Source of the DNA: an uncultured Chitinophagales bacterium
GTDB taxonomy: Bacteria; Bacteroidota; Bacteroidia; Chitinophagales; JAHDHT01
Assembly: GCA_938023075.1 (NCBI GenBank)
Contig: CALHDG010000273.1
Span: 1-51,344, forward strand
Direction of reading: 5' to 3'
DNA: 51,344 nt
Shown here: piece after piece, positions 10,924-24,684 of the stretch
How the letters are laid out: the number at the start of each line of letters is the position of its first letter
Numbering within the stretch: the first letter of the stretch is position 1
Made by a program: the position numbers and the translations under genes
The notes under the pieces: generated by a model
Told to the model about the DNA's origin: nothing
Database searches by the model: none
The model's input: the letters and a program-made list of their open reading frames with translations, nothing else

Positions 10924-13551
10924 TCAATTCTTTTCTTTGTCATCCAACTCTTTTGTTTTGATATGCTTCATTAGATAATATTTCATTAATACTCTAATAT
11001 AATTTCGATACTTTATTTTACTTTTACTATTAAGAAATTTATCCATTCGAATATAGCTTTGAAAAGCATGGAAAAAATTTATTGTGGTTTCCTTATATTC
11101 GGTATCTAATTCGTAGTAGGAACGAGCTATTATAGAAATGCGTATTGGATTTTGATGCATATTTAACGACGATAAAGGGAGAAGATAATCAACGGCTTTC
11201 TTGTAGTCTTTTTCTATAAATGCTTTTATACCTAAATCATAAGCTATAGAAGCTATTGTTAAGTGAATGGATTTGTCTTTTTTCTTTGTCACATTTCTAT
11301 CTATTAAATTTTGAACCCTCTCACTCAAAAAGTTCTTTCCTTCACTTACTTTATCAATAGCGATAAGCAACTCATCCACATCAAAATCTTTCAGTAAAAA
11401 TCCATCTGCACCTGCTTTTAAGGTGTTTTTTACCGTTGGTAAATCATCATAATTCGACAGTATAATCACGTAAACATTTGGATATAATTCTTTGACTTTT
11501 CGTGTAGCTTCTAAGCCATCAATATCAGGCATACGAATATCTATCAAAACAACTTGAGGTTGAATATTATCCAATTTACTTAATAAGTCAGCACCATTCA
11601 AAGCAGTAAATAAAATTTCTATAGAATCTTTTTCTCCCAATATTTTTTCTATGGCTTGTAAAAATAACTGGCTGTTTTCGGCAATAGCAATAGAAATATT
11701 TTGTGTATCGCGTGAACTTGAATTATCTTTATTTGCTGAAATATACTTCTCTCCAATTTTATCAAAAAATGGTTTTAAATGTTCTTTTTCTTCTTTTAAA
11801 GAATCATTTTCAAAGGAGCGGAAATTCTCTTTCATCAATTCATCATAAGTTTGATGATGTTCAACTTTTAATCGCAACTCTTCGTCTCCGGCTAATTTTT
11901 TTTCAAAAGCTTTTAAAGCATCTCCACTTAATTCGCCATTAATGTATTGATTGATTAGAATTTCATGATCAAATTGTTCAATAGTTTTTTTTTCGAAGTA
12001 CGGTTTCCCTACTTTCTCAAAAATTGGGCTTAGTTCTTTTTTTTGTTTTTGATAAACATCGTTATTTAAATAAAGATAGTTTTCTTTTAGTAACGAGTTA
12101 ATGGATTGGTGTTGTTTAACTTTCAATCTCAATGTCTCATTGTTTGCTATTTTTTTCTCAAAATCTTTTAAGGCATTGCCACTTAACTCACCATTGAGAT
12201 ATTGAATAATTTGCATTTCATTTAAACTGTCGTCTAATTGAGCTAAAATAGATTTGGCGATATCACCATACTTTTCAGACTCTTGTAATAGATTTAGTAT
12301 TGGTTTTGCTTTATTTGGTTGTTTTTGATTTAAATAACCTAAAGCTAAATAGCAATTGGAAATATCGTAAACATCTTTGAAAGTCTGTATAGCTGATTCT
12401 TTTTTATTTGATAAAAAATCAAAAATACCCTTTTCAATAGTAGTTAGCTTGGTTACTTCAAGCCAAGGTATTAGTGGAGGATCAGTTCTAAAAGTTGATG
12501 ATTCCGAAATTAAATAGTCTTTAACTCTATTTGAATAGTGAAAATAATGATCAATTTGATCTTTTACTGAGGAAATTAAAATGAATTTATTTACGCGGAA
12601 AAATTTATTTTTTAACTCAGATGAAATTTTGTTGTAAACTTCAAAAAGCTCATTAGTGTCAACTCTCTCGTTAATTGAAAATTCAATTTTATGAATGCAA
12701 ACGATTAAGAAAAATGCAGCTATTTGATTTACTCTATTAAATGAATTACTTGCATTCCTCCAATCAACATCTAAAAATCTCCAGATTCCTTCCCCTAATG
12801 TTGGTAGACTAGAATATCTATCTGAATTCGTCGTAGAAAAGAAAATATTTTTTTGTTCCATTAGGTTTTCATTATAGAAATCCGAAAAGTCTGATAATGT
12901 TTTTTCAGAAACAGACTTTGCTTTAAAATTGCTTATTTGCTTTTCCCTTTTTTTCTCAAGCCCATAATTATCATAAAAAACAATATTTTGCGTTCTCAAC
13001 AGATTTTCCAATTGGTCAACTGCACTTTCAACAAAATATTTTCTCCCTACTTTAGTAAAAATCGGTTCAAGGGTTTCTTTTTCTTGCTTATAATTCTCTG
13101 TACTTAGTGATAAATGGTTTTCCTTTAACAGTCGGTCATTAATTTGATATTTTCGGATTTTATTCTTTAACTCATTCTTATTCTTTATAAATTCATTGAC
13201 TTTTGCCTTTACTTCTTCGCCTATTTCATTGTTAATATATTGATTTAATTGTTGAGTATCAATATGATGTACTTCGGTATTTGCTTGAACCACTTTTCTA
13301 AATTCAACCCTTTGTATAGAAGTTGTTTCTTTATATGGAAATTTAATTTTGTAAGCGTCCAAATCATAGGCTTTTATATAAGTATTGTTGTCAATAATAA
13401 AATTATCTGCATCGGATGCAGTATAATAAACAACTAAAGTATTACCCTGTAATTCTATATTTTGTAAACTATGGCTTGCATCAGGAAATACAATATTGAT
13501 AATCCTTTCTTTATTAATTTGATATGTAGAATTGCCTAATTCGGGCTTCAT
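10924..13551 (-). CDS. Anti-sigma-like / response-regulator receiver fusion with helical tail
   Basis: An 875-residue cytoplasmic protein with no signal peptide or membrane segment. Three related ~85-residue modules occur at ~101-185, 445-525 and 531-605. Modules 2 and 3 begin with YLNGELSG and YINGELSG followed by a helical FEKKLA.DEELRLKVEHHQ-type stretch, the pattern of Bacteroidota anti-sigma N-termini; module 1 is more diverged. Residues ~617-745 are a NarL-type receiver domain: phospho-acceptor Asp671 in LIDIRMPDIDG, Ser699, Lys721 in GFLLKD; one of the usual paired acidic residues is changed (Glu625-Asn626). No LuxR DNA-binding helix-turn-helix follows; residues ~755-875 are helical and TPR-like. 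Residues 190-440 are helical and unassigned. It starts 9 nt after the tandem-sigma-2 gene, so it is the likely partner of that sigma factor, perhaps releasing it on phosphorylation (inferred). Confidence 0.72.
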   Translation of the reverse strand: MKPELGNSTYQINKERIINIVFPDASHSLQNIELQGNTLVVYYTASDADNFIIDNNTYIKAYDLDAYKIKFPYKETTSIQRVEFRKVVQANTEVHHIDTQQLNQYINNEIGEEVKAKVNEFIKNKNELKNKIRKYQINDRLLKENHLSLSTENYKQEKETLEPIFTKVGRKYFVESAVDQLENLLRTQNIVFYDNYGLEKKREKQISNFKAKSVSEKTLSDFSDFYNENLMEQKNIFFSTTNSDRYSSLPTLGEGIWRFLDVDWRNASNSFNRVNQIAAFFLIVCIHKIEFSINERVDTNELFEVYNKISSELKNKFFRVNKFILISSVKDQIDHYFHYSNRVKDYLISESSTFRTDPPLIPWLEVTKLTTIEKGIFDFLSNKKESAIQTFKDVYDISNCYLALGYLNQKQPNKAKPILNLLQESEKYGDIAKSILAQLDDSLNEMQIIQYLNGELSGNALKDFEKKIANNETLRLKVKQHQSINSLLKENYLYLNNDVYQKQKKELSPIFEKVGKPYFEKKTIEQFDHEILINQYINGELSGDALKAFEKKLAGDEELRLKVEHHQTYDELMKENFRSFENDSLKEEKEHLKPFFDKIGEKYISANKDNSSSRDTQNISIAIAENSQLFLQAIEKILGEKDSIEILFTALNGADLLSKLDNIQPQVVLIDIRMPDIDGLEATRKVKELYPNVYVIILSNYDDLPTVKNTLKAGADGFLLKDFDVDELLIAIDKVSEGKNFLSERVQNLIDRNVTKKKDKSIHLTIASIAYDLGIKAFIEKDYKKAVDYLLPLSSLNMHQNPIRISIIARSYYELDTEYKETTINFFHAFQSYIRMDKFLNSKSKIKYRNYIRVLMKYYLMKHIKTKELDDKEKN

Positions 13552-13560
13552 TTTTTGTTG

Positions 13561-14382
13561 TTAAAGTTGTTTATATAATGGATGATTTTCACAACATTTC
13601 CGCAAACGCTCTCTACAAGTATACATCTTTTGATCGACATTGTTGGGTTCTATATCCAATTCTTCCGCAATTTCTTTAGCACTCATATCAATCATACGCA
13701 TGCCTAACAGCTCTTTACAATCTCTTTTTAATTCATTAAAACTATCTTTTAAAATAATGAATTGCAACTCTTTATTTTGTTCTAATGAGAAAAATGGGTC
13801 TTTTATATTTTCGGTATCAATTATATTTATTGATTGATCTTTGTTTCTCATCCTTAGTTCATTAATCCATAAATTTTTATATACCCGGTATAAATAGCCA
13901 CCAAAAGGCACCAGTAATTCTATTGGTTTTGATTGATGGCGTAACGAAACTGCAATTAAAGCTTCTTGGAAAATATCATAAGCATCATCAACCGTTCCTC
14001 CATTCCTTAATACAAATCGCTTACACTCGGGTGCATGATTCTGATAGATTTCTTCAACTAATGCTTCGTTTCTATTAACTAAAGCTTCTAAATATTTTTG
14101 ATCATCGTGCTGCCTTTTATTTATATTCTTATCAAGCCATAAATTTTTATACACCGACTGCAAATATTCTCCAAAAGGCACAACCAATTCAATGGGCTTC
14201 GATTTATGCCGTAGGGAAACCACCTTTAAAATTTCCTGAAAAATGTTATAAGCTTCGTTTTGGCTTCCTCCATTTTTTATAATAAATCGTTTACATTCAG
14301 GAGCAAACTTATTGTAGATTTCATCCACTAAAGCATCGTCTCTATAAACTAAAGCATCTATATATTTTTGGTCATCGTGCAT
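13561..14382 (-). CDS. ECF-like sigma factor with duplicated sigma-2 domain
   Basis: A 273-residue protein. Residues 2-91 and 92-181 are two copies of the same sigma-70 region 2 module: HDDQKY...AL..R..ALV.EIY...APECKRF followed by AY.IFQE, SLRH.SKPIEL and YKNLW. Residues ~206-273 are a single sigma region 4 with a helix-turn-helix (DMSAKEIAEELDIEPNNV, ~234-251). Ordinary ECF factors of ~180-200 residues have one sigma-2 and one sigma-4. The second sigma-2 keeps the canonical basic ending after NLW (INELRMRNK); the first ends NLWLDKNINKRQ and may have changed role. DNA of the two copies is still recognisably alike, so the duplication is fairly recent or under selection. The anti-sigma/receiver gene follows after 9 nt. 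Confidence 0.8.
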   Translation of the reverse strand: MHDDQKYIDALVYRDDALVDEIYNKFAPECKRFIIKNGGSQNEAYNIFQEILKVVSLRHKSKPIELVVPFGEYLQSVYKNLWLDKNINKRQHDDQKYLEALVNRNEALVEEIYQNHAPECKRFVLRNGGTVDDAYDIFQEALIAVSLRHQSKPIELLVPFGGYLYRVYKNLWINELRMRNKDQSINIIDTENIKDPFFSLEQNKELQFIILKDSFNELKRDCKELLGMRMIDMSAKEIAEELDIEPNNVDQKMYTCRERLRKCCENHPLYKQL

Positions 14383-15076: not shown

Positions 15077-15120
15077 AATAACATGACCTGACGAATCAGG
15101 TCGTGTTATTTATTTTTTTT
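15077..15120. terminator. Strong bidirectional terminator overlapping a gene end
   Basis: AATAACATGACCTGA (15077-15091) pairs with TCAGGTCGTGTTATT (15096-15110), 15 bp with one G-T pair and a 4-nt loop, followed by TATTTTTTTT. It ends transcription of the 14724 gene. The right arm and T-tract also encode the last residues (KKINNTT) and the stop of the minus-strand gene at 15096. Confidence 0.85.
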
Positions 15121-16547
15121 GACAACCAAGCTCGCTCTACAGTATTTTTCTTCAACATTAACAAAAGTTTTTCTTTGCTTTGATCAGGATTGGATAGATC
15201 TCTAACTATTTGAGTAAAATTATATAGAGATTCATACAAGTAATCATCATTAAACTCATCTTTATTGTTGTTCAAATACTTTACCAAGTTTACTCGCTCT
15301 TCTTCAAATTTACTATAATCTCTTATTTCATAAAGGCACTTAATCTGTAACACTTTCCTTCTTAAATAAAACCGTATTTTTCGCTTTGAATATTTGCTCA
15401 AATACTCCAGCGATTCTTTAAATTTATTTTGAGCGAACAACTTGTAAGCCAAACATAAATTTAAAGTAGGTTCTTTGTAATCGTCCTCAATTCTAAATTG
15501 GTATTTTTTCCAGGCACTATCTATTTCATTTGGTTTTTGTTCTTCGCAACATATATAAGCGTAGTTAATTAAAATTTGAGGCTGTAATAAGCCATTCGTC
15601 AAAAACACAGACCTTTCTAAACCTAATTTATGCAAATTGAAATGTGTTGCTGTTAAGTCAATATGGTTTTTTCTTGTAATAAAGGAGGCATAGTTAATGG
15701 CAAAAGTAAGTATAGTGCCTAATTCCTTTTCATTTAAAAATGGTGCTTTTTCAATTATTTTATCGGTCAAAAGTTTTAGATGAACTTTGCTTTCTTTAAT
15801 TGATAATTCAAAACAAAGCAGGTAGAGTTCAAATAAAGTATTATTAGCATTTTGTTCTATCAGGTTTTCATTAAGGCTTACCATTTCAAGTTGAGTACTT
15901 TCAATGTCAGGCAAATTAAATTGTTCGCCTCTAATTTTTTTTCGGTACAACGCTTCTGTATAATATCGCATTTTCGTCAACCCAAGAAATGTATTTAAAT
16001 GCTGCAATAATTTTTTTAAATATTCACTACCTTTTTGCCAAATATGCGTATTTAAATTGTAGTATAAATGATGATAAAATTTATGTATTTGATAATATTC
16101 ATCAATATTATTAGCATTTGTTTTTTCTAAATGATTACCAATATCGTTTAATTTAAATTCAATCAATTTCGATAAATCAATAATACTAATACTATTTTCA
16201 GGAAGTTCTTTCGCCTGATAATAGGCGACCATTAGTAATTTTTTCTGCAGATCAAAATTATTGCTCTTATGTGTCTTTTTGGTAAGCCAATTAACTAACA
16301 AAAAATTCTCCGCTATATTAAACAATTGATGACGTAATTGGTTTATTTTATTAAGGTTTTCAATTTGCTCTGATAATTTTCGAGGTCGCTTAGCATATTT
16401 TATTATACAATTGTGTAAACGCAACAGATCATCGTGGTTTCCTTTTTTTTGTGACCATAGATTTCTGTTTTCTAACCATATTTGGAGTCCTCTTTTTTCT
16501 TGAGCATCCATTACATTATACAGTTTTACGATTTTAGTATCAGTCAT
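15096..16547 (-). CDS. Large helical cytoplasmic protein, paralogue of the 33004-34422 gene
   Basis: A 483-residue protein without signal peptide or membrane segments, predicted almost wholly helical, with TPR-like spacing in the second half (NLCLAYKLFAQNKFKESLEY, VLQIKCLYEIRDYSKFEEE). It ends with the signature RAWLSKKINNTT. The protein at 33004-34422 has the same length class and layout and ends LNKWLIQKIDEL, and their N-termini also align (KLYNVMDAQEKRGLQIWL with ELLKGLNEKEFKQLGKLI), so they are distant paralogues. I recognise no catalytic motif. This looks like a lineage-specific family, possibly a scaffold. The stop codon lies inside a terminator hairpin. A -7 box (TATCTTTG, 16684-16691) lies 137 nt upstream. 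Confidence 0.7.
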   Translation of the reverse strand: MTDTKIVKLYNVMDAQEKRGLQIWLENRNLWSQKKGNHDDLLRLHNCIIKYAKRPRKLSEQIENLNKINQLRHQLFNIAENFLLVNWLTKKTHKSNNFDLQKKLLMVAYYQAKELPENSISIIDLSKLIEFKLNDIGNHLEKTNANNIDEYYQIHKFYHHLYYNLNTHIWQKGSEYLKKLLQHLNTFLGLTKMRYYTEALYRKKIRGEQFNLPDIESTQLEMVSLNENLIEQNANNTLFELYLLCFELSIKESKVHLKLLTDKIIEKAPFLNEKELGTILTFAINYASFITRKNHIDLTATHFNLHKLGLERSVFLTNGLLQPQILINYAYICCEEQKPNEIDSAWKKYQFRIEDDYKEPTLNLCLAYKLFAQNKFKESLEYLSKYSKRKIRFYLRRKVLQIKCLYEIRDYSKFEEERVNLVKYLNNNKDEFNDDYLYESLYNFTQIVRDLSNPDQSKEKLLLMLKKNTVERAWLSKKINNTT

Positions 16548-23634: not shown

Positions 23635-24684
23635 ATGAAAAATCCTACACCAAGAGAAGTTGCCTTATCGGTTGCTAGCCGTATTACAGCTATTATTGTA
23701 CTACTCATTATATTAACCAAATTTTTTTTTAGTCCAGAAATATATTGGGGACATATTGCTGCCATTGCGCTACTGAGTTTTGTGATCTCCTTTTTAATTG
23801 TGCTTTCTGCCATTCAGCAGTTCATTTATCGAAAAATTAAATTGATCTACAAAAAAATATCAACCATAAAGTTGGGAGATATAGAAAAAGTAAAGCAATT
23901 TAGAAGTGATATTGATGTAATTTCGGAAGCCGATGAACAAGTAAATGAATGGTTAGATAGCAGCAATAGAGAAATTGAAAAACTGAAAATTGAAGAAGCC
24001 TACAGAAAAGAATATTTGGGTAATGTAGCACACGAGTTGAAAACGCCACTATTTACTATACAAGGTTATGTTGAAACCTTAATTGATGGTGCTTTAGATG
24101 ACCCGAATGTGAATATGAAATACCTCAGCAAAGCGAAAAAAAATATTAAGCGGCTCAATAAAATTATTGACGATCTCGATACGATTAATGTGTTAGAAGC
24201 CGAAACCTTTAAATTAGACAGTGAGGTATTTGACATGCATACCTTAACGGAGGAGGTTTTTGAAGAATTAGAAGTGAAGGCAAAAGAGTTTAACATCAGC
24301 TTTCAGATTAAAGAAGGCATTGAAGGTAAATTTATGGTATATGGTGATGTAGAAAAAGTTCGTCAGGTGTTAATTAATTTAATTGAAAACTCTATAAAAT
24401 ACGGTAAGCCAAGTGGCACTACTGCTGTTGGGTTTTACGATATGGAAAAGTATATCTTAACGGAAGTTTCTGACGATGGCAAAGGCATTGCTGAAGAAGA
24501 CATTCCTCGGTTATTCGAGCGATTTTACCGGGTAGAAAAAAGCCGAAGCCGCGCAAGAGGCGGCACGGGATTGGGCTTAGCTATTGTAAAACATATCATT
24601 GAAGCCCACCGTCAATCTATTAATGTACGCAGTAAATTAGGTTTTGGATCTACCTTTGGGTTTACGATGCAAAAGGCGGTTTAA
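23635..24684 (+). CDS. Sensor histidine kinase (PhoR-like)
   Basis: A 349-residue kinase. Two membrane helices (about 15-33 and 40-62) are joined by only a few residues, so there is no large periplasmic sensor. A linker and a short helical region lead to the dimerisation box VAHELKTPLF with phospho-His133. The ATPase domain has the N box (LINLIENSIKYG), G1 (DDGKGI), F box (LFERFYRVEKSRSR) and G2 (GGTGLGLAIVKHI). The missing sensor implies it reads a membrane or intracellular signal, as in PhoR where a transporter complex signals. It forms an operon with the regulator upstream. Confidence 0.93.
   Translation: MKNPTPREVALSVASRITAIIVLLIILTKFFFSPEIYWGHIAAIALLSFVISFLIVLSAIQQFIYRKIKLIYKKISTIKLGDIEKVKQFRSDIDVISEADEQVNEWLDSSNREIEKLKIEEAYRKEYLGNVAHELKTPLFTIQGYVETLIDGALDDPNVNMKYLSKAKKNIKRLNKIIDDLDTINVLEAETFKLDSEVFDMHTLTEEVFEELEVKAKEFNISFQIKEGIEGKFMVYGDVEKVRQVLINLIENSIKYGKPSGTTAVGFYDMEKYILTEVSDDGKGIAEEDIPRLFERFYRVEKSRSRARGGTGLGLAIVKHIIEAHRQSINVRSKLGFGSTFGFTMQKAV

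Follow-up and report, generated by a model that had tools for sequence, protein, structure and literature searches.

A gene for an ECF sigma factor followed directly by a gene whose product joins anti-sigma-like modules to a response-regulator receiver raises the question of whether the second protein controls the first, and by what kind of signal. The pair lies in a 51,344-nucleotide stretch of DNA from an uncultured Chitinophagales bacterium (contig CALHDG010000273.1), referred to here in its entirety as the window. The reading frame of the mosaic protein spans positions 10924–13551 on the minus strand, encodes 875 residues without a membrane helix and starts 9 nucleotides past the stop codon of the sigma gene; frame, strand, length and spacing are all as given in the original prediction for this locus. 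A run of 875 open codons has a chance probability of 2e-29 at the local base composition, and codon bias favours frame 0 over both other frames in eight of eight segments, its value being about zero in the mid insert and in the C-terminal domain described below. Length and codon bias mark the frame as coding, less strongly in these two parts.

The reading frame, HMM matches and segment comparisons together resolve the protein into a succession of parts, all on the minus strand. An N-terminal segment (residues 1–97; 13261–13551), for which no homologue was found, precedes a degenerate anti-sigma module 1 (residues 98–177; 13021–13260). There follow an insert at the position of the membrane helix of the paralogues (residues 178–365; 12457–13020), for which a homologue was equally sought and not found, and a partner-type TPR tail (residues 366–440; 12232–12456), recognized by the match of residues 371–471 to the partner gene region of a paralogous pair, C163 (42% identity, E 4.6e-11). 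Modules 2 (residues 445–523; 11983–12219) and 3 (residues 528–609; 11725–11970) lead into a NarL-type receiver (residues 618–742; 11326–11700), and the chain ends in a TPR-like domain (residues 769–868; 10948–11247). This C-terminal domain matches a paralogue, C34, at 46% and is common to a paralogue family of about 480–510 residues; its AF2 model (pLDDT 86) is helical, with structural neighbours of TPR type. The helical proteins of this family occur in many copies in the source genome (L084, L085 and other loci), and the neighbour of the sigma gene in the window (15096–16547, minus strand) is a distant member. The TPR tail at about residues 366–440 and the TPR-like C-terminal domain, as well as the E625–N626 pair and the ten-pair paralogous family treated below, are points that the original prediction did not contain. 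Its statement that the protein has no DNA-binding output agrees with domain scans, Pfam included, which found no such domain.

The identity of the modules was assessed with an HMM trained on 35 modules of other proteins, none of them from the window. This model detects exactly three modules in the 875-residue protein, with scores of 20.8, 59.9 and 60.7 bits for modules 1, 2 and 3 (best of 999 shuffles, 7.6 bits). The predicted number of modules thus holds; the shared YLNGELSG-type motif does not, since YLNGELSG/YINGELSG is confined to modules 2 and 3 and module 1 reads YINNEIGEE. Among 26 full-length homologues, the NCBI anti-sigma factor model NF052375 matches 23 (best 1.2e-12), the putative anti-sigmaE model PRK13920 matches 10 and zf-HC2 matches 4; the NF052375 score, where printed (one homologue), is 36 bits against a curated cut-off of 100, and the window modules by themselves give no NF052375 match. 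The AF2 model of module 3 shows four helices (2–10, 16–28, 30–53 and 56–82) at a middling pLDDT of 79.6, low in its last part. A Foldseek search of the PDB with this model returns two chains, both weak matches (E 1.8–2.3) and both of the anti-sigma factor RslA (3hug), and a second alignment with RslA is middling (VIA Z 5.7, r.m.s.d. 5.2, 61 residues aligned). A match to an unrelated helical family had been named beforehand as the outcome that would count against the anti-sigma assignment; only weak, sub-threshold local matches of about 25 residues to Nif11 are seen, and Nif11 was rejected as the true family of the module. Taken together, the family models on homologues, the RslA fold match and the gene order described next argue strongly that the modules are anti-sigma domains.

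Ten other gene pairs in the source genome encode an ECF sigma factor (about 180–206 residues) together with a partner (231–291 residues) in which a single module is combined with a single membrane helix and a TPR tail. The module is present in 106 of 299 genomes of the order, mostly in reading frames of about 200–420 residues. In all 30 homologue loci examined, an ECF sigma gene lies immediately upstream on the same strand, and all 30 homologues carry a hydrophobic membrane segment, which is absent from the window protein; by eye, the partner in one pair of the source genome, C211, likewise has no obvious membrane helix. Pairs of an ECF sigma factor and a module–membrane helix–TPR anti-sigma-like protein are widespread, in the source genome and in these 106 genomes, and annotation may miss them because the family-model scores, where printed, fall under the curated cut-off.

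Phylogenetic trees place the two region-2 copies of the window sigma factor as sisters (99/94) and group the three window modules together (90/89), with C163 and C247 as the nearest pairs in both cases. Most simply read, each gene duplicated its first domain after the split from these two pairs. Sigma copy 1 and module 1 have longer branches than their sisters, and their faster evolution could be decay. With the gene order, the family models and the paralogous pairs, these congruent nearest relatives of sigma factor and modules make the adjacent sigma factor the likely target, and the predicted assignment of the modules as anti-sigma-type partners of the neighbouring sigma factor is supported on the same grounds.

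The presumed target (13561–14382, minus strand; 273 residues; Sigma70_r2 1.1e-5, TIGR02937 3.6e-18) has a tandem region 2, with copy 1 at residues 2–86 (14125–14379) and copy 2 at residues 92–181 (13840–14109), and one region 4 at residues 215–255 (13618–13740), whose match to Sigma70_r4_2 (E 3.5e-4) lies under the gathering score. The two copies are 67% identical (dN 0.27, dS 1.24; dN/dS about 0.22), and copy 1 retains 23 of 27 conserved positions. At the depth searched, a tandem region 2 occurs in only 4 of the 299 order genomes; those of the ECF sigma factors in G150, G128 and G041 (L132, L133 and L135) are diverged copies. Three modules facing two region-2 domains had been taken to suggest multivalent binding. 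The partners of the tandem sigma factors carry three modules in the window, two in G128 and one each in G150 and G041, so that module numbers do not follow those of region-2 copies. A three-to-two matching is unsupported because the partners of the other tandem sigma factors have one or two modules, and because class I anti-sigma domains also contact region 4, through helix 1, in addition to region 2, through helix 4 (PMC7406223).

The receiver is well defined as a domain (PF00072, residues 621–732, 2.7e-23), and the Asp671 (codon 11539–11541) and Lys721 on which the original prediction relied are both present, the former at the canonical phospho-acceptor position, as is Ser699. The active site reads E625, N626, D671, S699 and K721. 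At the second acidic position, Asn626 (codon AAC, 11674–11676) stands where all 30 other receivers spanning this site, from the source and related genomes, have Asp. This second acidic residue ligates Mg2+ directly; by definition a receiver that lacks any one of the five active-site residues is a pseudo-receiver, and Asn is a common substitute at this very position (PMC12632262). A canonical receiver has two acids, D, S/T and K all present; with Asn626 in place of the Mg2+-ligating acid, the window receiver is, by its residues, a pseudo-receiver under the published definition. How pseudo-receivers are activated is still a mystery according to a 2025 review (PMC12632262), and a literature search on CheY D13N found no paper. 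Among the paralogues, C19 has the closest receiver (64% over the receiver) and continues into GerE and HTH_17, an output that in the window is replaced by the C-terminal domain of the 480–510-residue family. The C19 regulator itself (receiver, GerE, HTH_17; L071:5149-6734) is followed directly by a PIN_3-domain gene, possibly a toxin–antitoxin pair with a receiver-bearing antitoxin.

A survey of genomes for the same gene pair, proposed with the original prediction, yielded no second example of the fusion among the sampled genomes and candidates scored. Scans of GTDB contigs with the 875-residue protein and with the sigma factor confirmed no relatives. Among the candidates scored per genome, no second fusion was found in 60 relatives, 299 order genomes and 395 phylum genomes, and no fusion of module 3 to a receiver in 395 class genomes; these surveys covered sampled genomes with a limited number of candidates in each, and absence from them is not proof. 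Long homologues of 344–478 residues, inspected singly by eye, have no receiver. The module–receiver fusion is a singleton among the genomes surveyed and the candidates scored in them.

These observations are, with fair probability, best joined in a single reading: the 875-residue protein would be an anti-sigma factor that acts in the cytosol on the tandem-region-2 ECF sigma factor of the preceding gene, was rebuilt from a module–membrane helix–TPR ancestor and is switched by protein binding. It would descend from the anti-sigma factors of this type that lie beside ECF sigma genes throughout the order. Region 2 and the anti-sigma module were each duplicated within their own gene, the membrane helix was lost, and the receiver of a NarL-type regulator and a TPR-like domain were gained in place of the envelope-facing sensor; sequence comparison shows these steps, except their order in time. 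The modules are expected to sequester the sigma factor, probably in class I manner, with helices 1–3 contacting region 4 and helix 4 contacting region 2. Given Asn626, the signal most likely arrives through a protein that binds the surfaces of the pseudo-receiver and TPR parts, and not through phosphorylation of an Asp.

The phosphorylation-controlled switch that the original prediction proposed, taken here as release or tightening of the sigma factor once an orphan kinase from another locus has phosphorylated Asp671, has in its favour a complete receiver signature and the retention of D671, S699 and K721, with which weak or unusual phosphorylation is conceivable. However, the direct Mg2+ ligand is Asn626 here and Asp in all 30 other receivers, and no kinase gene adjoins the reading frame, as had been predicted; the nearest (23635–24684), about 10 kb off, adjoins its own OmpR-type regulator. 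The substitution in the acid pair means that phosphorylation is not supported as the leading hypothesis for this receiver, and the orphan-kinase reading appears unlikely. Support of the sigma factor instead of inhibition has an apparent precedent in PorX, which binds its ECF sigma factor SigP with a KD of 78 nM and without which SigP is missing (PMC4800418). Against such stabilization by the 875-residue protein, module homologues match anti-sigma family models and a Pfam scan of the protein found no PorX-type output, which leaves it improbable.

It is similarly improbable that the fusion is a decaying mosaic, a genomic accident with no regulatory role. Its singleton status, the degenerate module 1, the long branches of module 1 and sigma copy 1 and a codon bias of about zero in two segments, the insert and the C-terminal domain, would fit such an origin. 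Set against them are the length of the open frame, with its 2e-29 chance expectation, the preference for frame 0 in every segment, the dN/dS of about 0.22 between the region-2 copies and the 23 of 27 conserved positions that copy 1 keeps.

A second fusion of the same module, counted in favour of the reading of the 875-residue protein as a cytosolic anti-sigma factor, occurs elsewhere in the source genome. In locus L082:2206-3614 (G000:C237:24205-25613), an ECF sigma gene encodes a short anti-sigma-like motif at its N-terminus, and the gene that overlaps it by 4 nucleotides encodes a fusion of an anti-sigma module with TssD/Hcp (PF17642, 1.3e-26), within a T6SS locus (TssC, TssD and VgrG-like neighbours). 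The arrangement suggests that sigma activity is coupled to secretion in an FlgM-like manner, and was not found elsewhere in the 299 order genomes.

Among known systems, the class I anti-sigma factors (RseA, RskA, RslA, RsiW and ChrR) share with it a short helical module whose gene adjoins that of an ECF sigma factor, here with the 9-nucleotide gap and in 30 of 30 homologue loci. Module homologues match anti-sigma models (under the curated cut-off where the score is printed), the only fold matches in the PDB are the weak ones to RslA, and the AF2 model of module 3 has the three-helix bundle and fourth helix of the class (at the pLDDT of 79.6). The window protein differs in its three modules, pseudo-receiver and TPR-like domains, in the absence of a membrane helix and in modules that lack the Hx3Cx2C zinc motif. 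Class I anti-sigma factors are seldom recognized in Bacteroidota, lying near only 6% of the ECF genes there (PMC7406223); the present module, which accompanies ECF sigma genes throughout the order, may fill part of this gap. The window protein further suggests that the sensor part joined to this module is exchangeable, and offers a test case for signal transmission by pseudo-receivers.

CrsR/HsbR already combine a receiver with an anti-sigma domain in a single chain, and RssB and PorX are sigma-binding response regulators; these are closer precedents than PhyR/NepR, with which the original prediction drew a correct contrast while missing the other three. CrsR/HsbR (REC-PP2C-GHKL, acting on RpoS) shares the single-chain arrangement (PMC6482189); its anti-sigma domain, however, belongs to the GHKL kinase class and acts through partner switching with an antagonist, and neither PP2C nor GHKL is among the Pfam matches of the 875-residue protein. 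RssB likewise joins a receiver to a sigma-binding part with no DNA-binding output, but its output is PP2C-like and the RssB–RpoS complex is degraded by ClpXP (PMC4800418). PorX of Porphyromonas gingivalis is, like the window protein, a Bacteroidota protein with a receiver, and binds the ECF sigma factor SigP directly (PMC4800418); it has another output domain, is phosphorylated by PorY and appears to support SigP, whereas behind the window receiver no PorX-type output was seen, Pfam giving no match above cut-off except the receiver itself. In PhyR–NepR–EcfG a receiver also governs the availability of an ECF sigma factor, but PhyR itself has the sigma-like domain and NepR is the anti-sigma factor that it binds, whereas the window receiver protein bears the anti-sigma modules and has no sigma domain in the Pfam scan. 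A soluble three-module anti-sigma factor of class I type with a pseudo-receiver matches none of CrsR/HsbR, RssB, PorX and PhyR. A further reading, somewhat less likely than not, would make it a class I anti-sigma factor in which a pseudo-receiver has taken the place of the membrane sensor: a multi-module sigma trap in the cytosol, with a sigma partner whose region 2 co-duplicated, and switched without phosphorylation by protein binding to a receiver fold. If this holds, the window fusion and the TssD fusion of the same module in the same genome would together make the anti-sigma module a portable unit that can be joined to different sensors.
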